Source of the DNA: Antedon bifida
Lineage: Eukaryota; Echinodermata; Crinoidea; Comatulida; Antedonidae
Direction: 5' to 3'
Assembly: GCA_963402885.1 (NCBI GenBank)
Contig: OY727102.1
Coordinates: 10,478,001-10,542,000 of the forward strand
Length of the DNA: 64,000 nucleotides
Below are positions 1 through 64,000 of the stretch, in pieces. Position numbers and translations under genes: made by a program. The notes beneath the pieces are model-generated. The model was not told the origin of the DNA. It saw only the letters and a list, made by a program, of their open reading frames with translations, and made no database searches. Position 1 is the first letter of the stretch. Each line of letters begins with the position of its first letter.

Positions 1-56
1 AATTTTTCACACAAAACATCAAAGTGTGCAGAATAGCTTCAAATCGCATTTGGAGA

Positions 57-144
57 CGTTTCAGACCATTTTGTGATTTTCGAAAAAACTTGTTAACATA
101 AAAACACCAAAGTGCTAAGAATAGCTTCAAATCGCATTTGGAGA
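57..144. repeat. Monomer A1 (first of an A-A pair)
   Basis: This sub-type of A has GTGCTAAG where the standard copy has GTGCTTAG. This copy also has CGTTTCAGACC in the left box, a marker shared with 3009, 4338, 27067, 28999 and 59145. In the AA pairs I checked, the first monomer carries CTAAG and the second CTTAG. A form of it with AACAAC in place of AACACC (for example 1133 and 2669) stands alone before B. Confidence 0.88.
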
Positions 145-232
145 CATTTTAGACCATTTTGTTATTTTCGAAAAATCTTGTTAACATAAAAACACCAAAG
201 TGCTTAGAATAGCTTCAAATCGCATTTGGAGA
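145..232. repeat. Monomer A2 (second of an A-A pair), GTTATTTT form
   Basis: It starts CATTTTAGACC instead of CGTTTTAGACC, a CG to CA change, and has TGTTATTTTCG in place of TGTGATTTTCG. This copy also has AAAAATCTTG. It always follows an A1-type end and is followed by B in the copies walked. A sister form with a longer T run is at 1561. Confidence 0.88.
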
Positions 233-397
233 CGTTTTAGACCATTTTGTGATTTTCGAAAAAACTTGGTTACAGAAAAACATCAAAGTGCTTAAAATAT
301 AATTAGAAACCGTTTTAGACCATTTTGAGCAATTCGATAAAACTTTTTACACAAAAACATCAAAGAGCACAAAATAGCTTAATATCGTATTTAAAAA

Positions 398-485
398 CGT
401 TTTAGACCATTTTGTGATTTTCGAAAAAACTTGTTAACATAAAAACACCAAAGTGCTTAGAATAGCTTCAAATCGCATTTGGAGA
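398..485. repeat. Monomer A, reference copy (88 bp)
   Basis: The left half is the shared box followed by TGTGATTTTCGAAAAAACTT, then GTTAACATAA, ACACCAAAGTGCTTAG, and a right third ending CAAATCGCATTTGGAGA. It holds two perfect dyads, TTTTCGAAAA and TGTTAACA, five bases apart, and a short CAAAT-CGC-ATTTG inverted repeat. C and G are equal at 14 each (32% G+C), and there are three CpG sites. A follows C, D, D' or another A, and precedes A or B. Other classes align with it along their length, so all four probably descend from one ancestor. Confidence 0.95.
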
Positions 486-563
486 CGTTTTAGACCATTT
501 TGTGATTTTCGAAAAAACTTGGTTACACAAAAACATCAAAGTGCTTAAAATCTCATTATAAAC
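486..563. repeat. Monomer B, GGTTACACA / CATTATAAAC form (78 bp)
   Basis: The left third matches A up to TTTTCGAAAAAACTT, then GGTTACACA replaces GTTAACATA, destroying the TGTTAACA dyad. The right third (TTAAAATCTCATTATAAAC) is 10 bp shorter than in A, about one helical turn. Every B in 1-28,090 is followed directly by C. This sub-form is found after A monomers. Confidence 0.93.
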
Positions 564-650
564 CGTTTTAGACCATTTTGAGCAATTCGATAAAACTTTT
601 CACACAAAAACATCAAAGAGCACAAAATAGCTTAATATCGTATTTAAAAA
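564..650. repeat. Monomer C, reference copy (87 bp)
   Basis: After the shared box it reads GAGCAATTCGATAAAACTTT, TCACACAAAAACATC, AAAGAGCACAAAATAGC and TTAATATCGTATTTAAAAA. The TTTTCGAAAA dyad of A and B is absent. C is always preceded by B (or an A/B hybrid), with one exception at 35048. It ends every module. U1 holds 83 C monomers by my walk. A sub-form with TTTTTACAC, as at 311, follows B copies of the TATAATTA or TCTAATTA type. Confidence 0.94.
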
Positions 651-737
651 CGTTTTAGACCATTTTGAGCATTTCGACAAAAATTTTTCACACAAAACAT
701 CAAAGTGTGCAGAATAGCTTCAAATCGCATTTGGAGA
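651..737. repeat. Monomer D, reference copy (87 bp)
   Basis: Left half: shared box, GAGCATTTCGACAAAAA, TTTTTCACACAAAACATC. Right half: AAAGTGTGCAG, then the same AATAGCTTCAAATCGCATTTGG end as A. D therefore looks like a C-type left half joined to an A-type right half. It opens modules DBC, DABC and DAABC. Variants include TTGTTCAC (for example 6796), AAAATTTTCAC (5272) and CTACAAAAA with GTGTACAG (5524). Confidence 0.94.
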
Positions 738-901
738 CGTTTTAGACCATTTGTGATTTTCGAAAAAACTTGGTTACAGAAAAACACCAAAGTGCTTAAA
801 ATCTCATTAGAAACCGTTTTAGACCATTTTGAGCAATTCGATAAAACTTTTCACACAAAAACATCAAAGAGCACAAAATAGCTTAATATCGTATTTAAAA
901 A

Positions 902-988
902 CGTTTTAGACCATTTTGAGCATTTCGACAAAAATTATTCCCACAAAACATCAAAGTGTGCAGAATAGCTTCAAATCGCATTTGGAGA
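902..988. repeat. Monomer D', TTATTCCCAC form (87 bp)
   Basis: Identical to D except that TTATTCCCACAAAAC replaces TTTTTCACACAAAAC in the middle. In U1, D' stands at 1814, 2242, 2582, 3855, 4932, 6456, 8201, 9650, 9990, 15706, 16891, 17231, 26300, 26640 and 27912. Each time it is followed by A, never directly by B, whereas plain D may precede either. Confidence 0.93.
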
Positions 989-1076
989 CGTTTTAGACCA
1001 TTTTGTGATTTTCGAAAAAACTTGTTAACATAAAAACACCAAAGTGCTTAGAATAGCTTCAAATCGCATTTGGAGA

Positions 1077-1132
1077 CGTTATTCCCACAAAACATCAAAG
1101 TGTGCAGAATAGCTTCAAATCGCATTTGGAGA
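1077..1132. repeat. Truncated D' (56 bp), U0/U1 boundary marker
   Basis: The monomer reads CGTT joined straight to ATTCCCACAAAAC. A 31-bp stretch (most of the shared box plus GAGCATTTCGACAAAAATT) is missing compared with D' at 902. A two-base TT is shared at the break. It is one of few indels that are out of monomer register. I use it to phase the mega-units. Confidence 0.9.
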
Positions 1133-1385
1133 CATTTTAGACCATTTTGTGATTTTCGAAAAAACTTGTTAACATAAAAACAACAAAGTGCTAAGAATAG
1201 CTTCAAATCGCATTTGGAGACGTTTTAGACCATTTTGTGATTTTCGAAAAAACTTGGTTACACAAAAACATCAAAGTGCTTAAAATCTCATTATAAACCG
1301 TTTTAGACCATTTTGAGCAATTCGATAAAACTTTTCACACAAAAACATCAAAGAGCACAAAATAGCTTAATATCGTATTTAAAAA

Positions 1386-1813
1386 CGTTTTATACCATTT
1401 TGAGCATTTCGACATAAATTTTTCACACAAAACATCAAAGTGTGCAGAATAGCTTCAAATCGCATTTGGAGACGTTTTAGACCATTTTGTGATTTTCGAA
1501 AAAACTTGTTAACATAAAAACACCAAAGTGCTAAGAATAGCTTCAAATCGCATTTTGAGACATTTTAGACCATTTTGTTTTTTTCGAAAAAACTTGTTAA
1601 CATAAAAACACCAAAGTGCTTAGAATAGCTTCAAATCGCATTTGGAGACGTTTTAGACCATTTTGTGATTTTCGAACAAACTTGGTTACAGAAAAACATC
1701 AAAGTGCTTAAAATCTCATTAGAAACCGTTTTAGACTATTTTGAGCAATTCGATAAAACTTTTCACACAAAAACATCAAAGAGCACAAAATAGCTTAATA
1801 TCGTATTTAAAAA
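1386..1813. repeat. Module DAABC, example (428 bp)
   Basis: D at 1386 (with TATACC and CGACATAAA), A1 at 1473, A2 at 1561, B at 1649 (TCGAACAAAC), C at 1727 (GACTATTTTG). It is the longest regular module. The markers in this copy recur together at 38503-38930 and 60474-60901. Confidence 0.92.
1561..1648. repeat. Monomer A2, T-run form
   Basis: Second monomer of an AA pair with TGTTTTTTTCG in place of TGTTATTTTCG. The monomer before it ends CATTTTGAGA rather than CATTTGGAGA, so the variant spans the joint. The same form occurs at 6203, 6971, 9397, 11514, 12490, 22994 and 23422 and in their U2, U3 and U4 counterparts. At 7947 the T run is one base longer, making that copy 89 bp. Confidence 0.87.
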
Positions 1814-2241
1814 CGTTTTAGACCATTTTGAGCATTTCGACAAAAATTATTCCCACAAAACATCAAAGTGTGCAGAATAGCTTCAAATCGCATTTGGAGA
1901 CATTTTAGACCATTTTGTGATTTTCGAAAAAACTTGTTAACATAAAAACACCAAAGTGCTAAGAATAGCTTCAAATCGCATTTTGAGACATTTTAGACCA
2001 TTTTGTTATTTTCGAAAAAACTTGTTAACATAAAAACACCAAAGTGCTTAGAATAGCTTCAAATCGCATTTGGAGACGTTTTAGACCATTTTGTGATTTT
2101 CGAAAAAACTTGGTTACAGAAAAACACCAGAGTGCTTAAAATCTCATTAGAAACCGTTTTAGACCATTTTGAGCAATTCGATAAAACTTTTCACACAAAA
2201 ACATCAAAGAGCACAAAATAGCTTAATATCGTATTTAAAAA

Positions 2242-2581
2242 CGTTTTAGACCATTTTGAGCATTTCGACAAAAATTATTCCCACAAAACATCAAAGTGTG
2301 CAGAATAGCTTCAAATCGCATTTGGAGACGTTTTAGACCATTTTGTGATTTTCGAAAAAACTTGTTAACATAAAAACACCAAAGTGCTTAGAATAGCTTC
2401 AAATCGCATTTGGAGACGTTTTAGACCATTTTGTGATTTTCGAAAAAACTTGGTTACAGAAAAACATCAAAGTGCTTAAAATCTCATTAGAAACCGTTTT
2501 AGACCATTTTGAGCAATTCGATAAAACTTTTCACACAAAAACATCAAAGAGCACAAAATAGCTTAATATCGTATTTAAAAA
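2242..2581. repeat. Module D'ABC, example (340 bp)
   Basis: D' at 2242, A at 2329, B at 2417, C at 2495. A second D'ABC follows at 2582. Tandem pairs also lie at 9650-10329 and 16891-17570 and at their counterparts in the other mega-units. Confidence 0.93.
2417..2494. repeat. Monomer B, GGTTACAGA / CATTAGAAAC form (78 bp)
   Basis: It differs from the copy at 486 by CAGA for CACA and by TTAGAAAC for TTATAAAC. The B monomers I checked after D and after A2 are of this form; single A monomers can precede either form. A 77-bp version with one T missing (CCATTTGTG) lies at 738, 17658, 27748 and 59826. A 79-bp version with an extra A lies at 18426 and 24279. Confidence 0.9.
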
Positions 2582-4029
2582 CGTTTTAGACCATTTTGAG
2601 CATTTCGACAAAAATTATTCCCACAAAACATCAAAGTGTGCAGAATAGCTTCAAATCGCATTTGGAGACATTTTAGACCATTTTGTGATTTTCGAAAAAA
2701 CTTGTTAACATAAAAACAACAAAGTGCTAAGAATAGCTTCAAATCGCATTTGGAGACGTTTTAGACCATTTTGTGATTTTCGAAAAAACTTGGTTACACA
2801 AAAACATCAAAGTGCTTAAAATCTCATTATAAACCGTTTTAGACCATTTTGAGCAATTCGATAAAACTTTTCACACAAAAACATCAAAGAGCACAAAATA
2901 GCTTAATATCGTATTTAAAAACGTTTTATACCATTTTGAGCATTTCGACATAAATTTTTCACACAAAACATCAAAGTGTGCAGAATAGCTTCAAATCGCA
3001 TTTGGAGACGTTTCAGACCATTTTGTGATTTTCGAAAAAACTTGTTAACATAAAAACACCAAAGTGCTAAGAATAGCTTCAAATCGCATTTGGAGACATT
3101 TTAGACCATTTTGTTATTTTCGAAAAATCTTGTTAACATAAAAACACCAAAGTGCTTAGAATAGCTTCAAATCGCATTTGGAGACGTTTTAGACCATTTT
3201 GTGATTTTCGAAAAAACTTGGTTACAGAAAAACATCAAAGTGCTTAAAATATAATTAGAAACCGTTTTAGACCATTTTGAGCAATTCGATAAAACTTTTT
3301 ACACAAAAACATCAAAGAGCACAAAATAGCTTAATATCGTATTTAAAAACGTTTTAGACCATTTTGTGATTTTCGAAAAAACTTGTTAACATAAAAACAC
3401 CAAAGTGCTTAGAATAGCTTCAAATCGCATTTGGAGACGTTTTAGACCATTTTGTGATTTTCGAAAAAACTTGGTTACACAAAAACATCAAAGTGCTTAA
3501 AATCTCATTATAAACCGTTTTAGACCATTTTGAGCAATTCGATAAAACTTTTCACACAAAAACATCAAAGAGCACAAAATAGCTTAATATCGTATTTAAA
3601 AACGTTTTAGACCATTTTGAGCATTTCGACAAAAATTTTTCACACAAAACATCAAAGTGTGCAGAATAGCTTCAAATCGCATTTGGAGACGTTTTACACC
3701 ATTTTGTGATTTTCGAAAAAACTTGGTTACAGAAAAACACCAAAGTGCTTAAAATCTCATTAGAAACCGTTTTAGACCATTTTGAGCAATTCGATAAAAC
3801 TTTTCACACAAAAACATCAAAGAGCACAAAATAGCTTAATATCGTATTTAAAAACGTTTTAGACCATTTTGAGCATTTCGACAAAAATTATTCCCACAAA
3901 ACATCAAAGTGTGCAGAATAGCTTCAAATCGCATTTGGAGACGTTTTAGACCATTTTGTGATTTTCGAAAAAACTTGTTAACATAAAAACACCAAAGTGC
4001 TTAGAATAGCTTCAAATCGCATTTGGAGA

Positions 4030-4085
4030 CGTTATTCCCACAAAACATCAAAGTGTGCAGAATAGCTTCAAATCGCATTTGGAGA
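4030..4085. repeat. Truncated D', second copy in U1
   Basis: Same joint as at 1077, 2,953 bp downstream. It is followed by an A/B hybrid instead of A and B, which separates it from the boundary copies. Confidence 0.9.
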
Positions 4086-4163
4086 CATTTTAGACCATTT
4101 TGTGATTTTCGAAAAAACTTGTTAACATAAAAACAACAAAGTGCTTAAAATCTCATTATAAAC
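4086..4163. repeat. A/B hybrid monomer (78 bp)
   Basis: The left part is an A2-like start (CATTTTAG) with GTTAACATAAAAACAACAAAGTGC. The right part is B (TTAAAATCTCATTATAAAC). Compared with 1133-1298 (A then B) exactly 88 bp are missing, and the joint falls in the CAAAGTGC box common to A and B. Counterparts: 30076-30153, 41203-41280 and 63174-63251. Confidence 0.9.
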
Positions 4164-5271
4164 CGTTTTAGACCATTTTGAGCAATTCGATAAAACTTTT
4201 CACACAAAAACATCAAAGAGCACAAAATAGCTTAATATCGTATTTAAAAACGTTTTATACCATTTTGAGCATTTCGACATAAATTTTTCACACAAAACAT
4301 CAAAGTGTGCAGAATAGCTTCAAATCGCATTTGGAGACGTTTCAGACCATTTTGTGATTTTCGAAAAAACTTGTTAACATAAAAACACCAAAGTGCTAAG
4401 AATAGCTTCAAATCGCATTTGGAGACATTTTAGACCATTTTGTTATTTTCGAAAAATCTTGTTAACATAAAAACACCAAAGTGCTTAGAATAGCTTCAAA
4501 TCGCATTTGGAGACGTTTTAGACCATTTTGTGATTTTCGAAAAAACTTGGTTACAGAAAAACATCAAAGTGCTTAAAATATAATTAGAAACCGTTTTAGA
4601 CCATTTTGAGCAATTCGATAAAACTTTTTACACAAAAACATCAAAGAGCACAAAATAGCTTAATATCGTATTTAAAAACGTTTTAGACCATTTTGTGATT
4701 TTCGAAAAAACTTGTTAACATAAAAACACCAAAGTGCTTAGAATAGCTTCAAATCGCATTTGGAGACGTTTTAGACCATTTTGTGATTTTCGAAAAAACT
4801 TGGTTACACAAAAACATCAAAGTGCTTAAAATCTCATTATAAACCGTTTTAGACCATTTTGAGCAATTCGATAAAACTTTTCACACAAAAACATCAAAGA
4901 GCACAAAATAGCTTAATATCGTATTTAAAAACGTTTTAGACCATTTTGAGCATTTCGACAAAAATTATTCCCACAAAACATCAAAGTGTGCAGAATAGCT
5001 TCAAATCGCATTTGGAGACGTTTTAGACCATTTTGTGATTTTCGAAAAAACTTGTTAACATAAAAACACCAAAGTGCTTAGAATAGCTTCAAATCGCATT
5101 TGGAGACGTTTTAGACCATTTTGTGATTTTCGAAAAAACTTGGTTACAGAAAAACATCAAAGTGCTTAAAATCTCATTAGAAACCGTTTTAGACCATTTT
5201 GAGCAATTCGATAAAACTTTTCACACAAAAACATCAAAGAGCACAAAATAGCTTAATATCGTATTTAAAAA

Positions 5272-5523
5272 TGTTTTAGACCATTTTGAGCATTTCGACA
5301 AAAAATTTTCACACAAAACATCAAAGTGTGCAGAATAGCTTCAAATCGCATTTGGAGACGTTTTAGACCATTTTGTGATTTTCGAAAAAACTTGGTTACA
5401 GAAAAACATCAAAGTGCTTAAAATCTCATTAGAAACCGTTTTAGACCATTTTGAGCAATTCGATAAAACTTTTCACACAAAAACATCAAAGAGCACAAAA
5501 TAGCTTAATATCGTATTTAAAAA
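5272..5523. repeat. Module DBC, example (252 bp)
   Basis: D at 5272, B at 5359, C at 5437. The first base of this D is T instead of C (ATGTTTTAG), a CG to TG change kept in U2 at 31262 and in U3 at 42389. Three DBC modules stand in tandem at 10330-11085. Confidence 0.92.
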
Positions 5524-5775
5524 CGTTTTAGACCATTTTGAGCATTTCTACAAAAATTTTTCACAAAAAACATCAAAGTGTACAGAATAGCTTCAAATCG
5601 CATTTGGAGACGTTTTAGACCATTTTGTGATTTTCGAAAAAACTTGGTTACAGAAAAACATCAAAGTGCTTAAAATCTCATTAGAAACCGTTTTAGACCA
5701 TTTTGAGCAATTCGATAAAACTTTTCACACAAAAACATCAAAGAGCACAAAATAGCTTAATATCGTATTTAAAAA

Positions 5776-5862
5776 CGTTTTAGACCATTTTGAGCATTTC
5801 TACAAAAATTTTTCACAAAAAACACCAAAGTGCTTAGAATAGCTTCAAATCGCATTTGGAGA
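5776..5862. repeat. D/A hybrid monomer, only in U1
   Basis: D-like left half (CTACAAAAATTTTTCAC) joined at ACACCAAAGTGC to an A right half (TTAGAATAGC). With the B and C before it, it accounts for the 164 bp that U2 (about 31,600) and U3 (about 42,750) lack: 78+87+87 bp in place of one 88-bp A. Confidence 0.88.
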
Positions 5863-7223
5863 CGTTTTAGACCATTTTGTGATTTTCGAAAAAACTTGGT
5901 TACACAAAAACATCAACGTGCTTAAAATCTCATTATAAACCGTTTTAGACCATTTTGAGCAATTCGATAAAACTTTTCACACAAAAACATCAAAGAGCAC
6001 AAAATAGCTTAATATCGTATTTAAAAACGTTTTAGACCATTTTGAGCATTTCGACAAAAATTTTTCACACAAAACATCAAAGTGTGCAGAATAGCTTCAA
6101 ATCGCATTTGGAGACGTTTTAGACCATTTTGTGATTTTCGAAAAAACTTGTTAACATAAAAACACCAAAGTGCTAAGAATAGCTTCAAATCGCATTTTGA
6201 GACATTTTAGACCATTTTGTTTTTTTCGAAAAAACTTGTTAACATAAAAACACCAAAGTGCTTAGAATAGCTTCAAATCGCACTTGGAGACGTTTTAGAC
6301 CATTTTGTGATTTTCGAAAAAACTTGGTTACAGAAAAACATCAAAGTGCTTAAAATCTCATTAGAAACCGTTTTAGACCATTTTGAGCAATTCGATAAAA
6401 CTTTTCACACAAAAACATCAAAGAGCACAAAATAGCTTAATATCGTATTTAAAAACGTTTTAGACCATTTTGAGCATTTCGACAAAAATTATTCCCACAA
6501 AACATCAAAGTGTGCAGAATAGCTTCAAATCGCATTTGGAGACGTTTTAGACCATTTTGTGATTTTCGAAAAAACTTGTTAACATAAAAACACCAAAGTG
6601 CTTAGAATAGCTTCAAATCGCATTTAGAGACGTTTTAGACCATTTTCTGATTTTCGAAAAAACTTGGTTACACAAAAACATCAAAGTGCTTAAAATATCA
6701 TTATAAACCGTTTTAGACCATTTTGAGCAATTCGATAAAACTTTTCACACAAAAACATCAAAGAGCACAAAATAGCTTAATATCGTATTTAAAAACGTTT
6801 TAGACCATTTTAAGCATTTCGACAAAAATTGTTCACACAAAACATCAAAGTGTGCAGAATAGCTTCAAATCGCATTTGGAGACGTTTTAGACCATTTTGT
6901 GATTTTCGAAAAAACTTGTTAACATAAAAACACCAAAGTGCTAAGAATAGCTTCAAATCGCATTTTGAGACATTTTAGACCATTTTGTTTTTTTCGAAAA
7001 AACTTGTTAACATAAAAACACCAAAGTGCTTAGAATAGCTTCAAATCGCATTTGGAGACGTTTTAGACGATTTTGTGATTTTCGAAAAAACTTGGTTACA
7101 GAAAAACATCAAAGTGCTTAAAATCTCATTATAAACCGTTTTAGACCATTTTGAGCAATTCGATAAAACTTTTCACACAAAAACATCAAAGAGCACAAAA
7201 TAGCTTAATATCGTATTTAAAAA

Positions 7224-7343
7224 CGTTTTAGACCATTTTGAGCATTTCTACAAAAAATTTTCACAAAAAACATCAAATCGCAAAAAAAAATTTTCACAAA
7301 AAACATCAAAGAGCACAAAATAGCTTAATATCGTATTTAAAAA
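7224..7343. repeat. D/C hybrid with 33-bp internal duplication (120 bp)
   Basis: The start is D (GAGCATTTCTAC), the end is C (AAAGAGCACAAAATAGC). Inside, TTTTCACAAAAAACATCAAA occurs twice, at 7258 and 7291, 33 bp apart, with TCGC plus an A run between. It is followed by D at 7344, so it fills a C position without a preceding B. Confidence 0.9.
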
Positions 7344-8113
7344 CGTTTTAGACGATTTTGAGCATTTCGACAAAAATTTTTCACACAAAACATCAAAGTG
7401 TGCAGAATAGCTTCAAATCGCATTTGGAGACGTTTTAGACCATTTTGTGATTTTCGAAAAAACTTGTTAACATAAAAACACCAAAGTGCTAAGAATAGCT
7501 TCAAATCGCATTTGGAGACATTTTAGATCATTTTGTTATTTTCGAAAAAACATGTTAACATAAAAACACCAAAGTGCTTAGAATAGCTTCAAATCGCATT
7601 TGGAGACGTTTTAGACCATTTTGTGATTTTCGAAAAAACTTGGTTACAGGAAAACATCAAAGTGCTTAAAATCTCATTAGAAACCGTTTTAGACCATTTT
7701 GAGCAATTCGATAAAACTTTTCACACAAAAACATCAAAGAGCACAAAATAGCTTAATATCGTATTTAAAAACGTTTTAGACCATTTTGAGCATTTCGACA
7801 AAAATTGTTCACACAAAACATCAAAGTGTGCAGAATAGCTTCAAATCGCATTTGGAGACGTTTTAGACCATTTTGTGATTTTCGAAAAAACTTGTTAACA
7901 TAAAAACACCAAAGTGCTAAGAATAGCTTCAAATCGCATTTTGAGACATTTTAGGCCATTTTGTTTTTTTTCGAAAAAACTTGTTAACATAAAAACACCA
8001 AAGTGCTTAGAATAGCTTCAAATCGCATTTGGAGACGTTTTAGACCATTTTGTGATTTTCGAACAAACTTGGTTACAGAAAAACATCAAAGTGCTTAAAA
8101 TCTCATTAGAAAC

Positions 8114-8200
8114 CGTTTTAGACCATTTTGAGCAATTTGATAAAATTTTTGACACAAAAACATCAAAGAGCACAAAATAGCTTAATATCGTATTTAAAAA
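8114..8200. repeat. Variant monomer C* (source of the 70-codon frame)
   Basis: C with GCAATTTGATAAAATTTTTGACAC in place of the usual form, with three changes close together: TTCG to TTTG, AACTTT to AATTTT, and CACAC to GACAC. The last turns a TGA into TCA in one minus-strand frame. Other copies: 12656, 33940, 35048, 45034 and 49488. Each except 35048 sits between a B carrying TCGAACAAAC and a D or D'. Confidence 0.9.
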
Positions 8201-9649
8201 CGTTTTAGACCATTTTGAGCATTTCGACAAAAATTATTCCCACAAAACATCAAAGTGTGCAGAATAGCTTCAAATCGCATTTGGAGACGTTTTAGACCAT
8301 TTTGTGATTTTCGAAAAAACTTGTTAACATAAAAACACCAAAGTGCTTAGAATAGCTTCAAATCGCATTTGGAGACGTTTTAGACCATTTTGTGATTTTC
8401 GAAAAAACTTGGTTACAGAAAAACATCAAAGTGCTTAAAATCTCATTAGAAACCGTTTTAGACCATTTTGAGCAATTCGATAAAACTTTTCACACAAAAA
8501 CATCAAAGAGCACAAAATAGCTTAATATCGTATTTAAAAACGTTTTAGACCATTTTGAGCATTTCGACAAAAAATGTTCACACAAAACATCAAAGTGTGC
8601 AGAATAGCTTCAAATCGCATTTGGAGACGTTTTAGACCATTTTGTGATTTTCGAAAAAACTTGTTAACATAAAAACACCAAAGTGCTAAGAATAGCTTCA
8701 AATCGCATTTGGAGACATTTTAGACCATTTTGTTATTTTCGAAAAATCTTGTTAACATAAAAACACCAAAGTGCTTAGAATAGCTTCAAATCGCATTTGG
8801 AGACGTTTTAGACCATTTTGTGATTTTCGAAAAAACTTGGTTACAGAAAAACATCAAAGTGCTTAAAATATAATTAGAAACCGTTTTAAACCATTTTGAG
8901 CAATTCGATAAAACTTTTTACACAAAAACATCAAAGAGCACAAAATAGCTTAATATCGTATTTAAAAACGTTTTAGACCATTTTGTGATTTTCAAAAGAA
9001 CTTGTTAACATAAAAACACCAAAGTGCTTAGAATAGCTTCAAATCGCATTTGGAGACGTTTTAGACCATTTTGTGATTTTCGAAAAAACTTGGTTACACA
9101 AAAACATTAAAGTGCTTAAAATCTCATTATAAACCGTTTTAGACCATTTTGAACAATTCGATAAAACTTTTCACACAAAAACATCAAAGAGCACAAAATA
9201 GCTTAATATCGTATTTAAAAACGTTTTAGACCATTTTGAGCATTTCGACAAACATTTTTCACACAAAACATCAAAGTTTGCAGAATAGCTTCAAATCGCA
9301 TTTGGAGACGTTTTAGACCATTTTGTGATTTTCGAAAAAACTTGTTAACATAAAAACACCAAAGTGCTAAGAATAGCTTCAAATCGCATTTTGAGACATT
9401 TTAGACCATTTTGTTTTTTTCGAAAAAACTTGTTAACATAAAAACACCAAAGTGCTTAGAATAGCTTCAAATCGCACTTGGAGACGTTTTAGACCATTTT
9501 GTGATTTTCGAAAAAACTTGGTTACAGAAAAACATCAAAGTGCTTAAAATCTCATTAGAAACCGTTTTAGACCATTTTGAGCAATTCGATAAAACTTTTC
9601 ACACAAAAACATCAAAGAGCACAAAATAGCTTAATATCGTATTTAAAAA

Positions 9650-10329
9650 CGTTTTAGACCATTTTGAGCATTTCGACAAAAATTATTCCCACAAAACATC
9701 AAAGTGTGCAGAATAGCTTCAAATCGCATTTGGAGACGTTTTAGACCATTTTGTGATTTTCGAAAAAACTTGTTAACATAAAAACACCAAAGTGCTTAGA
9801 ATAGCTTCAAATCGCATTTAGAGACGTTTTAGACCATTTTGTGATTTTCGAAAAAACTTGGTTACAGAAAAACATCAAAGTGCTTAAAATCTCATTAGAA
9901 ACCGTTTTAGACCATTTTGAGCAATTCGATAAAACTTTTCACACAAAAACATCAAAGAGCACAAAATAGCTTAATATCGTATTTAAAAACGTTTTAGACC
10001 ATTTTGAGCATTTCGACAAAAATTATTCCCACAAAACATCAAAGTGTGCAGAATAGCTTCAAATCGCATTTGGAGACGTTTTAGACCATTTTGTGATTTT
10101 CGAAAAAACTTGTTAACATAAAAACACCAAAGTGCTTAGAATAGCTTCAAATCGCATTTGGAGACGTTTTAGACCATTTTGTGATTTTCGAAAAAACTTG
10201 GTTACAGAAAAACATCAAAGTGCTTAAAATCTCATTAGAAACCGTTTTAGACCATTTTGAGCAATTCGATAAAACTTTTCACACAAAAACATCAAAGAGC
10301 ACAAAATAGCTTAATATCGTATTTAAAAA
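9650..10329. repeat. Tandem pair of D'ABC modules (2 x 340 bp)
   Basis: Units at 9650 and 9990, near-identical, then DBC at 10330. Counterparts at about 36,584 in U2 and 46,570 in U3. Confidence 0.88.
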
Positions 10330-12764: not shown

Positions 12765-12829
12765 TTCGACAAAAAAATTTCACAAAAAACATCAAAGTGC
12801 TTAGAATAGCTTCAAATCGCATTTGGAGA
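12743..12829. repeat. D/A hybrid monomer
   Basis: D left half with CGACAAAAAAATTTCAC, joined at ACATCAAAGTGC to an A right half (TTAGAATAGC); 87 bp. It lies at the right edge of the 1.6-kb local duplication. U3 copy: 49575-49661. Confidence 0.88.
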
Positions 12830-12994
12830 CGTTTTAGACCATTTTGTGATTTTCGAAAAAACTTGGTTACACAAAAACATCAAAGTGCTTAAAATCTCAT
12901 TATAAACCGTTTTAGACCATTTTGAGCAATTCGATAAAACTTTTCACACAAAAACATCAAAGAGCACAAAATAGCTTAATATCGTATTTAAAAA

Positions 12995-13081
12995 CGTTTT
13001 ATACCATTTTGAGCATTTCGACATAAATTTTTCACACAAAACACCAAAGTGCTAAGAATAGCTTCAAATCGCATTTGGAGA
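12995..13081. repeat. D/A1 hybrid monomer
   Basis: D left half (TATACC, CGACATAAATTTTTCAC) joined at ACACCAAAGTGC to an A1 right half (TAAGAATAGC), followed by A2. It stands for D plus A1 reduced to one monomer. U3 copy: 49827-49913. Confidence 0.88.
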
Positions 13082-48806: not shown

Positions 48807-48893
48807 CGTTTTAGACGATTTTGAGCATTTCGACAAAAATTTTTCACACAAAACATCAAAGTGTGCAGAATAGCTTCAAATCGCATTTGGAGA

Positions 48894-51900: not shown

Positions 51901-54900
51901 AAACATCAAAGTGTGCAGAATAGCTTCAAATCGCATTTGGAGACGTTTTAGACCATTTTGTGATTTTCGAAAAAACTTGTTAACATAAAAACACTAAAGT
52001 GCTTAGAATAGCTTCAAATCGCATTTGGAGACGTTTTAGACCATTTTGTGATTTTCGAACAAACTTGGTTACAGAAAAACATCAAAGTGCTTAGAATAGC
52101 TTCAAATCGCATTTGGAGACGTTTTAGACCATTTTGTGATTTTCGAAAAAACTTGGTTACAGAAAAACATCAAAGTGCTTAAAATATAATTAGAAACCGT
52201 TTTAGACCATTTTGAGCAATTCGATAAAACTTTTTACACAAAAACATCAAAGAGCACAAAATAGCTTAATATCGTATTTAAAAACGTTTTAGACCATTTT
52301 GTGATTTTCGAAAAAACTTGTTAACATAAAAACACCAAAGTGCTTAGAATAGCTTCAAATCGCATTTGGAGACGTTTTAGACCATTTTGTGATTTTCGAA
52401 AAAACTTGGTTACACAAAAACATCAAAGTGCTTAAAATCTCATTATAAACCGTTTTAGACCATTTTGAGCAATTCGATAAAACTTTTCACACAAAAACAT
52501 CAAAGAGCACAAAATAGCTTAATATCGTATTTAAAAACGTTTTAGACCATTTTGAGCATTTCGACAAAAATTATTCCCACAAAACATCAAAGTGTGCAGA
52601 ATAGCTTCAAATCGCATTTGGAGACGTTTTAGACCATTTTGTGATTTTCGAAAAAACTTGTTAACATAAAAACACCAAAGTGCTTAGAATAGCTTCAAAT
52701 CGCATTTGGAGACGTTTTAGACCATTTTGTGATTTTCGAAAAAACTTGGTTACACAAAAACATCAAAGTGCTTAAAATCTCATTATAAACCGTTTTAGAC
52801 CATTTTGAGCAATTCGATAAAACTTTTCACACAAAAACATCAAAGAGCACAAAATAGCTTAATATCGTATTTAAAAACGTTTTAGACCATTTTGAGCATT
52901 TCGACAAAAATTTTTCACACAAAACATCAAAGTGTGCAGAATAGCTTCAAATCGCATTTGGAGACGTTTTAGACCATTTTGTGATTTTCGAAAAAACTTG
53001 GTTACAGAAAAACACCAAAGTGCTTAAAATCTCATTAGAAACCGTTTTAGACCATTTTGAGCAATTCGATAAAACTTTTCACACAAAAACATCAAAGAGC
53101 ACAAAATAGCTTAATATCGTATTTAAAAACGTTTTAGACCATTTTGTGATTTTCGAAAAAACTTACTAACATAAAAACACCAAAGTGCTTAGAATAGCTT
53201 CAAATCGCATTTGGAGACGTTTTAGACCATTTTCTGATTTTCGAAAAAACTTGGTTACACAAAAACATCAAAGTGCTTAAAATCTCATTATAAACCGTTT
53301 TAGACCATTTTGAGCAATTCGATAAAACTTTTCACACAAAAACATCAAAGAGCACAAAATAGCTTAATATCGTATTTAAAAACGTTTTAGACCATTTTAA
53401 GCATTTCGACAAAAATTGTTCACACAAAACATCAAAGTGTGCAGAATAGCTTCAAATCGCATTTGGAGACGTTTTAGACCATTTTGTGATTTTCGAAAAA
53501 ACTTGTTAACATAAAAACACTAAAGTGCTTAGAATAGCTTCAAATCGTATTTGGAGACGTTTTAGACCATTTTGTGATTTTCGAACAAACTTGGTTACAG
53601 AAAAACATCAAAGTGCTTAAAATCTCATTAGAAACCGTTTTAGACCATTTTGAGCAATTCGATAAAACTTTTCACACAAAAACATCAAAGAGCACAAAAT
53701 AGCTTAATATCGTATTTAAAAACGTTTTAGACCATTTTGAGCATTTCGACAAAAATTATTCCCACAAAACATCAAAGTGTGCAGAATAGCTTCAAATCGC
53801 ATTTGGAGACGTTTTAGACCATTTTGTGATTTTCGAAAAAACTTGTTAACATAAAAACACCAAAGTGCTTAGAATAGCTTCAAATCGCATTTGGAGACGT
53901 TTTAGACCATTTTGTGATTTTCGAAAAAACTTGGTTACAGAAAAACATCAAAGTGCTTAAAATCTCATTAGAAACCGTTTTAGACCATTTTGAGCAATTC
54001 GATAAAACTTTTCACACAAAAACATCAAAGAGCACAAAATAGCTTAATATCGTATTTAAAAACGTTTTAGACCATTTTGAGCATTTCGACAAAAATTATT
54101 CCCACAAAACATCAAAGTGTGCAGAATAGCTTCAAATCGCATTTGGAGACGTTTTAGACCATTTTGTGATTTTCGAAAAAACTTGTTAACATAAAAACAC
54201 CAAAGTGCTTAGAATAGCTTCAAATCGCATTTGGAGACGTTTTAGACCATTTTGTGATTTTCGAAAAAACTTGGTTACAGAAAAACATCAAAGTGCTTAA
54301 AATCTCATTAGAAACCGTTTTAGACCATTTTGAGCGATTCGACAAAACTTTTCACACAAAAACATCAAAGAGCACAAAATAGCTTAATATCGTATTTAAA
54401 AACGTTTTAGACCATTTTGAGCATTTCGACAAAAAATTTTCACACAAAACATCAAAGTGTGCAGAATAGCTTCAAATCGCATTTGGAGACGTTTTAGACC
54501 ATTTTGTGATTTTCGAAAAAACTTGGTTACAGAAAAACATCAAAGTGCTTAAAATCTCATTAGAAACCGTTTTAGACCATTTTGAGCAATTCGATAAAAC
54601 TTTTCACACAAAAACATCAAAGAGCACAAAATAGCTTAATATCGTATTTAAAAACGTTTTAGACCATTTTGAGAATTTCGACAAAAAATTTTCACAAAAA
54701 ACATCAAAGTGTACAGAATAGCTTCAAATCGCATTTGGAGACGTTTTAGACCATTTTGTGATTTTCGAAAAAACTTGTTAACATAAAAACACCAAAGTGC
54801 TTAGAATAGCTTCAAATCGCATTTGGAGACGTTTTAGACCATTTTGTGATTTTCGAAAAAACTTGGTTACACAAAAACATCAAAGTGCTTAAAATCTCAT

Positions 54901-56520
54901 TATAAACCGTTTTAGACCATTTTGAGCAATTCGATAAAACTTTTCACACAAAAACATCAAAGAGCACAAAATAGCTTAATATCGTATTTAAAAACGTTTT
55001 AGACCATTTTGAGCATTTCGACAAAAATTTTTCACACAAAACATCAAAGTGTGCAGAATAGCTTCAAATCGCATTTGGAGACGTTTTAGACCATTTTGTG
55101 ATTTTCGAAAAAACTTGGTTACAGAAAAACACCAAAGTGCTTAAAATCTCATTAGAAACCGTTTTAGACCATTTTGAGCAATTCGATAAAACTTTTCACA
55201 CAAAAACATCAAAGTGCACAAAATAGCTTAATATCGTATTTAAAAACGTTTTAGACCATTTTGTGATTTTCGAAAAAACTTACTAACATAAAAACACCAA
55301 AGTGCTTAGAATAGCTTCAAATCGCATTTGGAGACGTTTTAGACCATTTTCTGATTTTCGAAAAAACTTGGTTACACAAAAACATCAAAGTGCTTAAAAT
55401 CTCATTATAAACCGTTTTAGACCATTTTGAGCAATTCGATAAAACTTTTCACACAAAAACATCAAAGAGCACAAAATAGCTTAATATCGTATTTAAAAAC
55501 GTTTTAGACCATTTTGAGCATTTCTACAAACATTTTTCACAAAAAACATCAAAGTGTACAGAATAGCTTCAAATCGCATTTGGAGACGTTTTAGACCATT
55601 TTGTGATTTTCGAAAAAACTTGTTAACATAAAAACACTAAAGTGCTTAGAATAGCTTCAAATCGCATTTGGAGACGTTTTAGACCATTTTGTGATTTTCG
55701 AACAAACTTGGTTACAGAAAAACATCAAAGTGCTTAAAATCTCATTAGAAACCGTTTTAGACCATTTTGAGCAATTCGATAAAACTTTTCACACAAAAAC
55801 ATCAAAGAGCACAAAATAGCTTAATATCGTATTTAAAAACGTTTTAGACCATTTTGAGCATTTCGACAAAAATATTTCACAAAAAACATCAAAGTGCTTA
55901 GAATAGCTTCAAATCGCATTTGGAGACATTTTAGACCATTTTGTGATTTTCGAAAAAACTTGTTAACATAAAAACACCAAAGTGCTAAGAATAGCTTCAA
56001 ATCGCATTTGGAGACATTTTAGACCATTTTGTTATTTTCGAAAAAACTTGTTAACATAAAAACACCAAAGTGCTTAGAATAGCTTCAAATCGCATTTGGA
56101 GACGTTTTAGACCATTTTGTGATTTTCGAAAAAACTTGGTTACAGAAAAACATCAAAGGGCTTAAAATCTAATTAGAAACCGTTTTAGACCATTTTGAGC
56201 AATTCGATAAAACTTTTTACACAAAAACATCAAAGAGCACAAAATAGCTTAATATCGTATTTAAAAACGTTTTAGACCATTTTGTGATTTTCGAAAAAAC
56301 TTGTTAACATAAAAACACCAAAGTGCTTAGAATAGCTTCAAATCGCATTTGGAGACGTTTTAGACCATTTTGTGATTTTCGAAAAAACTTGGTTACACAA
56401 AAACATCAAAGTGCTTAAAATCTCATTATAAACCGTTTTAGACCATTTTGAGCAATTCGATAAAACTTTTCACACAAAAACATCAAAGAGCACAAAATAG
56501 CTTAAAATCGTATTTAAAAA

Positions 56521-57026
56521 CGTTTTAGACCATTTTGTGATTTTCGAAAAAACTTGTCAACATAAAAACACCAAAGTGCTTAGAATAGCTTCAAATCGCA
56601 TTTGGAGACGTTTTAGACCATTTTGTGATTTTCGAAAAAACTTGGTTACAGAAAAACATCAAAGTGCTTAAAATCTAATTATAAACCGTTTTAGACCATT
56701 TTGAGCAATTCGATAAAACTTTTTACACAAAAACATCAAAGAGCACAAAATAGCTTAATATCGTATTTAAAAACGTTTTAGACCATTTTGTGATTTTCGA
56801 AAAAACTTGTTAACATAAAAACACCAAAGTGCTTAGAATAGCTTCAAATCGCATTTGGAGACGTTTTAGACCATTTTGTGATTTTCGAAAAAACTTGGTT
56901 ACACAAAAACATCAAAGTGCTTAAAATCTCATTATAAACCGTTTTAGACCATTTTGAGCAATTCGATAAAACTTTTCACACAAAAACATCAAAGAGCACA
57001 AAATAGCTTAAAATCGTATTTAAAAA
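56521..57026. repeat. 506-bp double ABC repeat in U3
   Basis: A with CTTGTCAAC stands at 56521 and again at 57027; C with CTTAAAATCG stands at 56434 and 56940. In U1 these markers are 3,987 bp apart. U3 keeps the left marker of one U1 copy and the right neighbours of the other, so 3,481 bp have been removed by exchange between the two. Confidence 0.87.
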
Positions 57027-57279
57027 CGTTTTAGACCATTTTGTGATTTTCGAAAAAACTTGTCAACATAAAAACACCAAAGTGCTTAGAATAGCTTCAA
57101 ATCGCATTTGGAGACGTTTTAGACCATTTTGTGATTTTCGAAAAAACTTGGTTACAGAAAAACATCAAAGTGCTTAAAATCTCATTAGAAACCGTTTTAG
57201 ACCATTTTGAGCAATTCGATAAAACTTTTCACACAAAAACATCAAAGAGCACAAAATAGCTTAATATCGTATTTAAAAA

Positions 57280-57785
57280 CGTTTTAGACCATTTTGTGAT
57301 TTTCGAAAAAACTTACTAACATAAAAACACCAAAGTGCTTAGAATAGCTTCAAATCGCATTTGGAGACGTTTTAGACCATTTTGTGATTTTCGAAAAAAC
57401 TTGGTTACAGAAAAACATCAAAGTGCTTAAAATCTCATTAGAAACCGTTTTAGACCATTTTGAGCAATTCGATAAAACTTTTCACACAAAAACATCAAAG
57501 AGCACAAAATAGCTTAATATCGTATTTAAAAACGTTTTAGACCATTTTGTGATTTTCGAAAAAACTTACTAACATAAAAACACCAAAGTGCTTAGAATAG
57601 CTTCAAATCGCATTTGGAGACGTTTTAGACCATTTTGTGATTTTCGAAAAAACTTGGTTACAGAAAAACATCAAAGTGCTTAAAATCTCATTAGAAACCG
57701 TTTTAGACCATTTTGAGCAATTCGATAAAACTTTTCACACAAAAACATCAAAGAGCACAAAATAGCTTAATATCGTATTTAAAAA
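57280..57785. repeat. Two tandem ABC modules with ACTTACTAAC
   Basis: Units at 57280 and 57533, 253 bp apart. Both A monomers carry ACTAAC in place of GTTAAC, which breaks the TGTTAACA dyad. U1 has a D'/A hybrid, B, C, D, B, C here (25204-25707), 2 bp shorter overall. Confidence 0.87.
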
Positions 57786-60164
57786 CGTTTTAGACCATTT
57801 TGAGCATTTCTACAAAAATTTTTCACAAAAAACATCAAAGTGTACAGAATAGCTTCAAATCGCATTTGGAGACGTTTTAGACCATTTTGTGATTTTCGAA
57901 AAAACTTGTTAACATAAAAACACCAAAGTGCTTAGAATAGCTTCAAATCGCATTTGGAGACGTTTTAGACCATTTTGTGATTTTCGAAAAAACTTGGTTA
58001 CACAAAAACATCAAAGTGCTTAAAATCTCATTATAAACCGTTTTAGACCATTTTGAGCAATTCGATAAAACTTTTCACACAAAAACATCAAAGAGCACAA
58101 AATAGCTTAATATCGTATTTAAAAACGTTTTAGACCATTTTGAGCATTTCGACAAAAATTTTTCACACAAAACATCAAAGTGTGCAGAATAGCTTCAAAT
58201 CGCATTTGGAGACGTTTTAGACCATTTTGTGATTTTCGAAAAAACTTGGTTACAGAAAAACACCAAAGTGCTTAAAATCTCATTAGAAACCGTTTTAGAC
58301 CATTTTGAGCAATTCGATAAAACTTTTCACACAAAAACATCAAAGAGCACAAAATAGCTTAATATCGTATTTAAAAACGTTTTAGACCATTTTGAGCATT
58401 TCGACAAAAATTATTCCCACAAAACATCAAAGTGTGCAGAATAGCTTCAAATCGCATTTGGAGACGTTTTAGACCATTTTGTGATTTTCGAAAAAACTTG
58501 TTAACATAAAAACACCAAAGTGCTTAGAATAGCTTCAAATCGCATTTGGAGACGTTTTAGACCATTTTGTGATTTTCGAAAAAACTTGGTTACAGAAAAA
58601 CATCAAAGTGCTTAAAATCTCATTAGAAACCGTTTTAGACCATTTTGAGCAATTCGATAAAACTTTTCACACAAAAACATCAAAGAGCACAAAATAGCTT
58701 AATATCGTATTTAAAAACGTTTTAGACCATTTTGAGCATTTCGACAAAAATTATTCCCACAAAACATCAAAGTGTGCAGAATAGCTTCAAATCGCATTTG
58801 GAGACATTTTAGACCATTTTGTGATTTTCGAAAAAACTTGTTAACATAAAAACAACAAAGTGCTAAGAATAGCTTCAAATCGCATTTGGAGACGTTTTAG
58901 ACCATTTTGTGATTTTCGAAAAAACTTGGTTACACAAAAACATCAAAGTGCTTAAAATCTCATTATAAACCGTTTTAGACCATTTTGAGCAATTCGATAA
59001 AACTTTTCACACAAAAACATCAAAGAGCACAAAATAGCTTAATATCGTATTTAAAAACGTTTTATACCATTTTGAGCATTTCGACATAAATTTTTCACAC
59101 AAAACATCAAAGTGTGCAGAATAGCTTCAAATCGCATTTGGAGACGTTTCAGACCATTTTGTGATTTTCGAAAAAACTTGTTAACATAAAAACACCAAAG
59201 TGCTAAGAATAGCTTCAAATCGCATTTGGAGACATTTTAGACCATTTTGTTATTTTCGAAAAATCTTGTTAACATAAAAACACCAAAGTGCTTAGAATAG
59301 CTTCAAATCGCATTTGGAGACGTTTTAGACCATTTTGTGATTTTCGAAAAAACTTGGTTACAGAAAAACATCAAAGTGCTTAAAATATAATTAGAAACCG
59401 TTTTAGACCATTTTGAGCAATTCGATAAAACTTTTTACACAAAAACATCAAAGAGCACAAAATAGCTTAATATCGTATTTAAAAACGTTTTAGACCATTT
59501 TGTGATTTTCGAAAAAACTTGTTAACATAAAAACACCAAAGTGCTTAGAATAGCTTCAAATCGCATTTGGAGACGTTTTAGACCATTTTGTGATTTTCGA
59601 AAAAACTTGGTTACACAAAAACATCAAAGTGCTTAAAATCTCATTATAAACCGTTTTAGACCATTTTGAGCAATTCGATAAAACTTTTCACACAAAAACA
59701 TCAAAGAGCACAAAATAGCTTAATATCGTATTTAAAAACGTTTTAGACCATTTTGAGCATTTCGACAAAAATTTTTCACACAAAACATCAAAGTGTGCAG
59801 AATAGCTTCAAATCGCATTTGGAGACGTTTTAGACCATTTGTGATTTTCGAAAAAACTTGGTTACAGAAAAACACCAAAGTGCTTAAAATCTCATTAGAA
59901 ACCGTTTTAGACCATTTTGAGCAATTCGATAAAACTTTTCACACAAAAACATCAAAGAGCACAAAATAGCTTAATATCGTATTTAAAAACGTTTTAGACC
60001 ATTTTGAGCATTTCGACAAAAATTATTCCCACAAAACATCAAAGTGTGCAGAATAGCTTCAAATCGCATTTGGAGACGTTTTAGACCATTTTGTGATTTT
60101 CGAAAAAACTTGTTAACATAAAAACACCAAAGTGCTTAGAATAGCTTCAAATCGCATTTGGAGA

Positions 60165-60220
60165 CGTTATTCCCACAAAACATCAAAGTGTGCAGAATAG
60201 CTTCAAATCGCATTTGGAGA
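60165..60220. repeat. Truncated D', U3/U4 boundary marker
   Basis: Counterpart of 1077 at +59,088. Confidence 0.9.
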
Positions 60221-63200
60221 CATTTTAGACCATTTTGTGATTTTCGAAAAAACTTGTTAACATAAAAACAACAAAGTGCTAAGAATAGCTTCAAATCGCA
60301 TTTGGAGACGTTTTAGACCATTTTGTGATTTTCGAAAAAACTTGGTTACACAAAAACATCAAAGTGCTTAAAATCTCATTATAAACCGTTTTAGACCATT
60401 TTGAGCAATTCGATAAAACTTTTCACACAAAAACATCAAAGAGCACAAAATAGCTTAATATCGTATTTAAAAACGTTTTATACCATTTTGAGCATTTCGA
60501 CATAAATTTTTCACACAAAACATCAAAGTGTGCAGAATAGCTTCAAATCGCATTTGGAGACGTTTTAGACCATTTTGTGATTTTCGAAAAAACTTGTTAA
60601 CATAAAAACACCAAAGTGCTAAGAATAGCTTCAAATCGCATTTTGAGACATTTTAGACCATTTTGTTTTTTTCGAAAAAACTTGTTAACATAAAAACACC
60701 AAAGTGCTTAGAATAGCTTCAAATCGCATTTGGAGACGTTTTAGACCATTTTGTGATTTTCGAACAAACTTGGTTACAGAAAAACATCAAAGTGCTTAAA
60801 ATCTCATTAGAAACCGTTTTAGACTATTTTGAGCAATTCGATAAAACTTTTCACACAAAAACATCAAAGAGCACAAAATAGCTTAATATCGTATTTAAAA
60901 ACGTTTTAGACCATTTTGAGCATTTCGACAAAAATTATTCCCACAAAACATCAAAGTGTGCAGAATAGCTTCAAATCGCATTTGGAGACATTTTAGACCA
61001 TTTTGTGATTTTCGAAAAAACTTGTTAACATAAAAACACCAAAGTGCTAAGAATAGCTTCAAATCGCATTTTGAGACATTTTAGACCATTTTGTTATTTT
61101 CGAAAAAACTTGTTAACATAAAAACACCAAAGTGCTTAGAATAGCTTCAAATCGCATTTGGAGACGTTTTAGACCATTTTGTGATTTTCGAAAAAACTTG
61201 GTTACAGAAAAACACCAGAGTGCTTAAAATCTCATTAGAAACCGTTTTAGACCATTTTGAGCAATTCGATAAAACTTTTCACACAAAAACATCAAAGAGC
61301 ACAAAATAGCTTAATATCGTATTTAAAAACGTTTTAGACCATTTTGAGCATTTCGACAAAAATTATTCCCACAAAACATCAAAGTGTGCAGAATAGCTTC
61401 AAATCGCATTTGGAGACGTTTTAGACCATTTTGTGATTTTCGAAAAAACTTGTTAACATAAAAACACCAAAGTGCTTAGAATAGCTTCAAATCGCATTTG
61501 GAGACGTTTTAGACCATTTTGTGATTTTCGAAAAAACTTGGTTACAGAAAAACATCAAAGTGCTTAAAATCTCATTAGAAACCGTTTTAGACCATTTTGA
61601 GCAATTCGATAAAACTTTTCACACAAAAACATCAAAGAGCACAAAATAGCTTAATATCGTATTTAAAAACGTTTTAGACCATTTTGAGCATTTCGACAAA
61701 AATTATTCCCACAAAACATCAAAGTGTGCAGAATAGCTTCAAATCGCATTTGGAGACATTTTAGACCATTTTGTGATTTTCGAAAAAACTTGTTAACATA
61801 AAAACAACAAAGTGCTAAGAATAGCTTCAAATCGCATTTGGAGACGTTTTAGACCATTTTGTGATTTTCGAAAAAACTTGGTTACACAAAAACATCAAAG
61901 TGCTTAAAATCTCATTATAAACCGTTTTAGACCATTTTGAGCAATTCGATAAAACTTTTCACACAAAAACATCAAAGAGCACAAAATAGCTTAATATCGT
62001 ATTTAAAAACGTTTTATACCATTTTGAGCATTTCGACATAAATTTTTCACACAAAACATCAAAGTGTGCAGAATAGCTTCAAATCGCATTTGGAGACGTT
62101 TCAGACCATTTTGTGATTTTCGAAAAAACTTGTTAACATAAAAACACCAAAGTGCTAAGAATAGCTTCAAATCGCATTTGGAGACATTTTAGACCATTTT
62201 GTTATTTTCGAAAAATCTTGTTAACATAAAAACACCAAAGTGCTTAGAATAGCTTCAAATCGCATTTGGAGACGTTTTAGACCATTTTGTGATTTTCGAA
62301 AAAACTTGGTTACAGAAAAACATCAAAGTGCTTAAAATATAATTAGAAACCGTTTTAGACCATTTTGAGCAATTCGATAAAACTTTTTACACAAAAACAT
62401 CAAAGAGCACAAAATAGCTTAATATCGTATTTAAAAACGTTTTAGACCATTTTGTGATTTTCGAAAAAACTTGTTAACATAAAAACACCAAAGTGCTTAG
62501 AATAGCTTCAAATCGCATTTGGAGACGTTTTAGACCATTTTGTGATTTTCGAAAAAACTTGGTTACACAAAAACATCAAAGTGCTTAAAATCTCATTATA
62601 AACCGTTTTAGACCATTTTGAGCAATTCGATAAAACTTTTCACACAAAAACATCAAAGAGCACAAAATAGCTTAATATCGTATTTAAAAACGTTTTAGAC
62701 CATTTTGAGCATTTCGACAAAAATTTTTCACACAAAACATCAAAGTGTGCAGAATAGCTTCAAATCGCATTTGGAGACGTTTTACACCATTTTGTGATTT
62801 TCGAAAAAACTTGGTTACAGAAAAACACCAAAGTGCTTAAAATCTCATTAGAAACCGTTTTAGACCATTTTGAGCAATTCGATAAAACTTTTCACACAAA
62901 AACATCAAAGAGCACAAAATAGCTTAATATCGTATTTAAAAACGTTTTAGACCATTTTGAGCATTTCGACAAAAATTATTCCCACAAAACATCAAAGTGT
63001 GCAGAATAGCTTCAAATCGCATTTGGAGACGTTTTAGACCATTTTGTGATTTTCGAAAAAACTTGTTAACATAAAAACACCAAAGTGCTTAGAATAGCTT
63101 CAAATCGCATTTGGAGACGTTATTCCCACAAAACATCAAAGTGTGCAGAATAGCTTCAAATCGCATTTGGAGACATTTTAGACCATTTTGTGATTTTCGA

Positions 63201-64000
63201 AAAAACTTGTTAACATAAAAACAACAAAGTGCTTAAAATCTCATTATAAACCGTTTTAGACCATTTTGAGCAATTCGATAAAACTTTTCACACAAAAACA
63301 TCAAAGAGCACAAAATAGCTTAATATCGTATTTAAAAACGTTTTATACCATTTTGAGCATTTCGACATAAATTTTTCACACAAAACATCAAAGTGTGCAG
63401 AATAGCTTCAAATCGCATTTGGAGACGTTTCAGACCATTTTGTGATTTTCGAAAAAACTTGTTAACATAAAAACACCAAAGTGCTAAGAATAGCTTCAAA
63501 TCGCATTTGGAGACATTTTAGACCATTTTGTTATTTTCGAAAAATCTTGTTAACATAAAAACACCAAAGTGCTTAGAATAGCTTCAAATCGCATTTGGAG
63601 ACGTTTTAGACCATTTTGTGATTTTCGAAAAAACTTGGTTACAGAAAAACATCAAAGTGCTTAAAATATAATTAGAAACCGTTTTAGACCATTTTGAGCA
63701 ATTCGATAAAACTTTTTACACAAAAACATCAAAGAGCACAAAATAGCTTAATATCGTATTTAAAAACGTTTTAGACCATTTTGTGATTTTCGAAAAAACT
63801 TGTTAACATAAAAACACCAAAGTGCTTAGAATAGCTTCAAATCGCATTTGGAGACGTTTTAGACCATTTTGTGATTTTCGAAAAAACTTGGTTACACAAA
63901 AACATCAAAGTGCTTAAAATCTCATTATAAACCGTTTTAGACCATTTTGAGCAATTCGATAAAACTTTTCACACAAAAACATCAAAGAGCACAAAATAGC
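60169..64000. repeat. Start of mega-unit U4 (cut by the window end)
   Basis: It matches U1 1,081-4,912 at a constant offset of 59,088, with no difference that I could find by eye. It includes the DAABC markers at 60474, the CACCAGAGTGC variant at 61,212, the TTTTACACC variant in B at 62778, the second truncated D' at 63118 and the A/B hybrid at 63174. The window ends inside a C monomer. Confidence 0.88.
63118..63173. repeat. Truncated D', second copy in U4
   Basis: Counterpart of 4030 at +59,088, followed by the A/B hybrid at 63174. Confidence 0.9.

Follow-up and report, generated by a model that had tools for sequence, protein, structure and literature searches.

Overlapping segmental duplications as the probable origin of a centromere-type satellite array in Antedon bifida

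The window analysed here, a stretch of 64,000 bp, is satellite DNA throughout. It lies at 10,478,001-10,542,000 of contig C15, which is 21.7 Mb long in a genome of 315.6 Mb and 27 contigs. We put the probability at roughly 0.8 that the window forms the young and homogeneous core of an array of centromere type on C15 that is growing by overlapping segmental duplications. The ancestral unit would be a tetramer of diverged monomers, A-B-C-D, common to several chromosomes, in which C was multiplied or B or C was lost. Stretches of tens of such modules may then have been duplicated recently, in tandem or nearby, through out-of-register sister exchange or break-induced replication. The expected outcome would be one module order recurring in blocks that measure 10-33 kb, vary irregularly in length and carry few substitutions.

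Dynamic-programming decomposition divides the window into 757 monomers of four classes, A (197 copies), B (155), C (209) and D (196), with lengths of 87, 87, 88 and 78 bp. Because no base is left unassigned by this procedure, goodness of fit is what tests it. The class forms are 69-84% alike, and copies within a class are almost identical (median identity to the class form 0.97-1.00); the commonest A monomer occurs in 104 exact copies. Just 16 of the 757 monomers are less than 85% identical to their own class, all of them shortened copies located at two joints that recur. Decomposition by core motif, tried first, had left 228 of 1,726 pieces unresolved, and dynamic programming was used in its place.

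Monomers are ordered into modules that begin with A and finish with D, with a variable middle of B and C. ABCD (51), ABCCD (46), ACD (44) and ABD (40) make up 181 of the 198 modules, mostly with lengths of 340, 428, 253 and 252 bp, respectively; the other 17 take other forms. The monomer after D is always A in the window (195 of 195), and over the 166 kb decomposed it is A in 488 of 496 cases. Diverged monomers in a fixed order, present in near-identical copies, characterise a higher-order-repeat (HOR) satellite. The 171-bp monomer of alpha satellite is not found here, where monomers measure 87, 87, 88 and 78 bp. No gene or transposon stretch was seen in the window, and a search of the E. coli collection gave no match.

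The best conserved part of the monomer is a 17-base stretch at its start, TTTTAGACCATTTTGTG. Its mean conservation is 0.945, compared with 0.868 overall and 0.915 for the next separate conserved stretch, in a set of 276 distinct monomers from C1, C11 and the C15 edges, from which monomers outside 70-92 bp or below 75% were dropped. This stretch could be a candidate protein-binding box, such as a CENP-B box. A text search of the literature for the conserved 15-mer, its reverse complement and a 22-base stretch gave no match, which does not imply that the satellite is undescribed; among the titles found, we recognised none as treating this satellite family.

The array on C15 starts near 10.42 Mb. 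Its left flank (10,400,001 to about 10,420,000) is a different satellite of 186 bp with a 372-bp double unit. A 372-bp centromeric satellite occurs in the hydrozoan Hydractinia; none of the titles returned by our literature search concerned it. In the sequence read at 10,420,001-10,435,000, roughly the first 10 kb of the array is inverted; the orientation then flips and stays constant to 10.60 Mb. C runs are abundant at this left edge. A 10-kb sample at 10.806-10.816 Mb is still satellite; between 10.600 and 10.806 Mb matches to it occur in places, and the sequence to the right of 10.600 Mb was read at the sample only. Within this stretch, at 10.614-10.740 Mb, match pairs recur at distances of 118,019 and 124,111 bp, three at each, which suggests a separate duplication layer to the right of the window.

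The left edge is older than the core. Copies of 2-kb tiles were sought within the 180 kb compared (10.42-10.60 Mb), with the left edge as the edge examined. Of seven tiles at 10.420-10.446 Mb, five have a best other copy at 92-94% and two have none. From 10.456 Mb on, 30 of 36 tiles are at least 99% identical to their best other copy, 23 of them at 100%; the remaining six reach only 95.1-98.9%.

The same satellite family is present on other contigs. An 8-kb sample from C1 and a 10-kb sample from C11 have the same A-D grammar, with median identities to the C15 forms of 93% and 99%, respectively. In the genome as a whole there are 55,344 occurrences of the 17-base core; from the sample density, we estimate that this corresponds to about 6-10 Mb of satellite. 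Among the matches listed (100 of 55,344 for the core and 100 of 494 for a rare core variant), positions cluster on C1, C7, C8, C9, C11 and C15. The 100 listed places of the rare variant, given in contig order, form one domain each on C1 (21.2 Mb), C7 (19.7-20.9 Mb), C8 (24.7-24.9 Mb) and C9 (12.1-12.5 Mb). On C11, the matches listed lie at 11.94-12.24 Mb, and nine pairs, at 12.145 and 12.238 Mb, are exactly 93,392 bp apart. Long block duplication is therefore not special to C15.

From its sequence, we infer that the array may be the working centromere. It could instead be a pericentromeric or non-centromeric satellite block away from the kinetochore site, a reading that we regard as rather unlikely. 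In its favour, the centromere assignment is sequence-based, the 186/372-bp satellite adjoins the array on the left, and the rare core variant, in a list that follows contig order and stops before the later contigs (100 of 494 places), is found on C1, C7, C8 and C9 and on none of C2-C6, short of a demonstrated genome-wide spread. However, on each of six contigs the listed matches fall in a single domain; the exceptions are two of the first 100 of 55,344 core matches, which lie on C1 outside its domain. The domain also lies well inside the contig on C1, C11 and C15, and the pairing of a young core with an older left edge is likewise at odds with such a block.

Long-range order within the window is marked by two joints at which monomers are shortened. 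These joints, the array itself and the longest exact repeat are as follows.

1..64000, + strand: satellite array with all monomers in the same orientation, part of the C15 array (decomposition and matches)
1069..1134, + strand: joint with a B monomer truncated to 66 bp (decomposition)
Starts at 4022, 28079, 30012, 38186, 41139, 60157 and 63110, + strand: other copies of the same truncated-B joint (decomposition)
7226..7345, + strand: second landmark joint, a D monomer cut to 52 bp followed by an A monomer cut to 68 bp (decomposition)
11769, 33052 and 48689, + strand: other copies of the second landmark joint (decomposition)
12081..17672, + strand: longest exact repeat within the window, 5,592 bp, equal to 48,913-54,504 (exact matching)

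The joint points of the truncated B fall at 1,080, 4,033, 28,090, 30,023, 38,197, 41,150, 60,168 and 63,121, eight sites in the window and 14 in the 200 kb read. Bases 1-1,080 recur without a difference (1080/1080) at 27,011 and 59,089, and bases 1-4,912 equal 59,089-64,000 exactly. An earlier note on this DNA had described four monomer classes, modules of 252-428 bp, this recurrence of the first 1,080 bases and a shared joint at 1077, 28087, 38194 and 60165. Decomposition and exact matching bear out these observations, placing the joint at 1,080, 28,090, 38,197 and 60,168 and adding four more window sites.

Chance recurrence is ruled out by shuffles of module order, in both repeat cover and module lag. 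Exact repeats of at least 2 kb cover 78% of the window (0.778), compared with 0 in 20 shuffles, and those of at least 1 kb cover 88%, compared with 0.9% (highest 6.9%; n = 20). For repeats of at least 500 bp the cover is 95% (0.954); because shuffles already reach 0.605 on average (60.5%; n = 20), the case against chance rests on the longer repeats. The strongest module lag, 114 modules (about 37 kb), pairs identical modules at a fraction of 0.40, compared with a highest value of 0.17 in 200 shuffles. At 81 modules (about 27 kb) the fraction is 0.10, inside the shuffle range, in a single-lag test that is weakened by indels. Since repeat cover far exceeds that of shuffles, module order has been copied across long distances. 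Strings of HOR variants that recur above shuffles are what marks a superHOR, and such strings are present here.

Long diagonals continue outside the window, which the earlier note had named as support for its mega-unit. The closest long match in the 180 kb compared (10.42-10.60 Mb) spans 12,402 bp at 99.97% identity with an offset of 74,551. At offsets of 59,087 and 60,406, window positions -3,545 to 20,091 match 55,542 to 80,495 at about 99%. Several duplication offsets coexist, of about 9.9, 36.8, 59.1, 65.8 and 74.6 kb. Such diagonals would be expected both of a true mega-unit and of blocks duplicated recently, and so do not tell the two apart.

Counting units from joint to joint and numbering them from the start of the window gives seven successive units, the last incomplete at the end of the sequence read.

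U1, 1..27010, + strand: 27,010 bp, 320 monomers, 85 A-led modules
U2, 27011..37117, + strand: 10,107 bp, 120 monomers; its nearest relative by alignment, U5, lies beyond the window
U3, 37118..59088, + strand: 21,971 bp, 260 monomers; first 10.3 kb nearly the same as in U6 and U7, both beyond the window
U4, 59089..64000 in the window, + strand: 32,947 bp in all, 391 monomers, running beyond the window
U5, start 92,036 (window count), right of the window: 9,735 bp, 115 monomers
U6, start 101,771 (window count), right of the window: 9,899 bp, 117 monomers
U7, start 111,670 (window count), right of the window: at least 10,331 bp, 122 monomers, end cut

Constant length in successive copies, the mark of a regular mega-unit, is absent: the seven units range from 9,735 to 32,947 bp, a 3.4-fold spread (9.7-32.9 kb). 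Their lengths, 27.0, 10.1 and 22.0 and then 32.9, 9.7, 9.9 and at least 10.3 kb, rule out the regular period of about 22-27 kb that the earlier note had proposed. Its estimate of some 83 modules per mega-unit comes close for U1, which holds 85 A-led modules. Of its three tiers, the monomer and the module hold, also in the C1 and C11 samples. The third tier holds as a recurring order; it fails as a nested period because unit lengths vary 3.4-fold, relationships skip neighbours and several duplication offsets coexist.

The relationships among units were taken from affine alignments of their first 10.4 kb or less, in 21 pairs; a greedy walker between units had jumped among paralogous modules, and affine alignment was used instead. 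U6 and U7 share 9,899 identical bases with no substitution and one 88-bp gap, the length of one monomer, and represent a clean 9.9-kb tandem duplication. U3 and U7 have 10,328 identical bases and two substitutions, U3 and U6 also differ by two, and U2 and U5 have 8,964 identical bases, two substitutions and three length changes. The remaining 17 of the 21 pairs carry 10-58 substitutions. Nearest relatives are thus often non-adjacent, U3 being closest to U6 and U7 and U2 to U5, and parts of U2-U3 match parts of U5-U7, 66-75 kb away, with one mismatch in 5,015 bp and three in 12,402 bp. Substitution counts depend on the alignment: U1 and U3 differ by 16 over 10 kb in the affine alignment and by one over 21.7 kb when eight breaks are skipped, including replaced tracts of 26/27 and 43/44 bases.

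Length changes between units are mostly in register with the monomers. In a list that omits one-base gaps and the 44/43 replacements, 12 of 16 distinct length differences (680, 340, 164, 427, 253, 88, 176, 252, 768, 1108, 87 and 341 bp) can be composed of monomer lengths to within 1 bp, compared with 30% expected; the other four are 33, 120, 97 and 70 bp. The pattern is consistent with in-register exchange or replication slippage, from which those four lengths depart. Near-identity over 12,402 bp (99.97%), together with length differences that are in register in 12 of 16 cases, is what segmental duplication inside a satellite array leaves behind. Overlapping recent duplications of this kind explain the recurring order without a third-order unit. 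We infer that the copies arose through sister exchange or break-induced replication, and selection probably does not maintain a mega-unit.

The units also offer a counterpoint to duplication alone: seven in succession have the joint in common and follow the same order for about 10 kb, which would also be expected of a mega-unit. A true third-order repeat, or superHOR, would be built from a mega-unit near 10 kb long, sometimes extended by a further part, that was amplified as a whole with its order kept. In addition to the joint in seven successive units, the kilobase to its left is exactly that of U1 in U2, U4 and U5; U5, U6 and U7 measure 9.7, 9.9 and at least 10.3 kb, and the last two of these form a clean tandem duplication. 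However, the shortest unit measures 9.7 kb and the longest 32.9 kb, the units most alike often lie apart (U2-U5, U3-U6/U7), several duplication offsets coexist, and in U3, U6 and U7 exact identity with U1 extends only 249 bases to the left of the joint. We therefore hold it to be distinctly improbable that this is a third-order repeat as such. The corresponding claim, that a non-alpha satellite has had a mega-unit of 115-391 monomers block-amplified seven times in a row, is equally doubtful.

Random growth can produce similar recurrence in a toy simulation, in which runs of 1-120 modules were duplicated or deleted at random with no unit favoured and no mutation (chosen parameters, guards on lengths and array size, 100 runs per setting). 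With 60-300 events, the median top lag was 0.26-0.31, cover reached at least 0.75 in 58-80% of runs, and two or more long lags exceeded 10% in 82-95%. Only 9% of runs with 20 events and 35% of those with 40 reached a cover of 0.75. The top lag in the window, 0.40, exceeds the simulated medians, and its cover is 0.78 (2 kb); the window would thus fall on the high side of the simulation, yet not out of line with it. Under these settings, the simulation indicates only that no special mechanism would be required.

Contig C1 starts with TTAGGG repeats (all 100 places listed for the TTAGGN pattern lie at its start), so the assembly extends to at least one telomere; the telomere-type patterns TTTAGGG (plant) and TTAGG (insect) had no match in the genome. 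It is very unlikely that haplotypes or overlapping reads set in tandem by the assembler made some of the copies: near-perfect copies of 10-12 kb, such as the 12,402-bp match and U6-U7, are the hardest case for assembly, but most unit pairs carry several length changes, mostly in register, C11 also has matches repeated at one long distance, and the telomere repeats of C1 speak for good assembly there.

Block duplication of irregular length, which we favour for this array, is an ordinary growth route for such DNA. The array offers a natural record of how centromere-type arrays may grow, with near-identical duplicates of at least 10 kb that have gained and lost monomer-sized pieces. Such arrays could be used to measure structural turnover against point mutation, because length changes outnumber substitutions in two of the closest pairs (one to none in U6-U7, three to two in U2-U5). 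They also carry a warning, that long diagonals in a satellite dot-plot alone do not prove a third-order period. If a third-order repeat were nevertheless real, its mega-unit of 115-391 monomers would exceed in monomer number the 59mer described in PMC11276891.

HORs, superHORs and layered expansions have been described for primates (PMC8336445, PMC11276891, PMC12321929). The array is a member of the HOR class and works like these primate systems; it is not alpha satellite. In human alpha satellite, superHORs are cases in which HOR variants themselves recur in order (CentromereArchitect, PMC8336445). With the human HORs and superHORs as outlined there, our array shares diverged monomers, a nested tandem repeat and a recurring order of variants, whereas its monomers are 78-88 bp rather than 171 bp, fall into four classes and form blocks of 115-391 monomers of varying length. 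The orangutan 59mer alpha-satellite HOR is present in eight copies, of which six are canonical 59mers and two are 56mer variants, with about 0.1% divergence between them, and is called the largest in primates (PMC11276891). The likeness lies in the very long unit, a 59mer coming to about 10 kb by our arithmetic; in contrast to the six of eight orangutan copies with one canonical length, the units here have no common length. Layered expansions, as summarised in a review (PMC12321929), resemble the C15 array in their young homogeneous core and older edge and in growth by recombination or replication repair; they differ in that the array described here is known from its sequence, with the left edge as the edge read.
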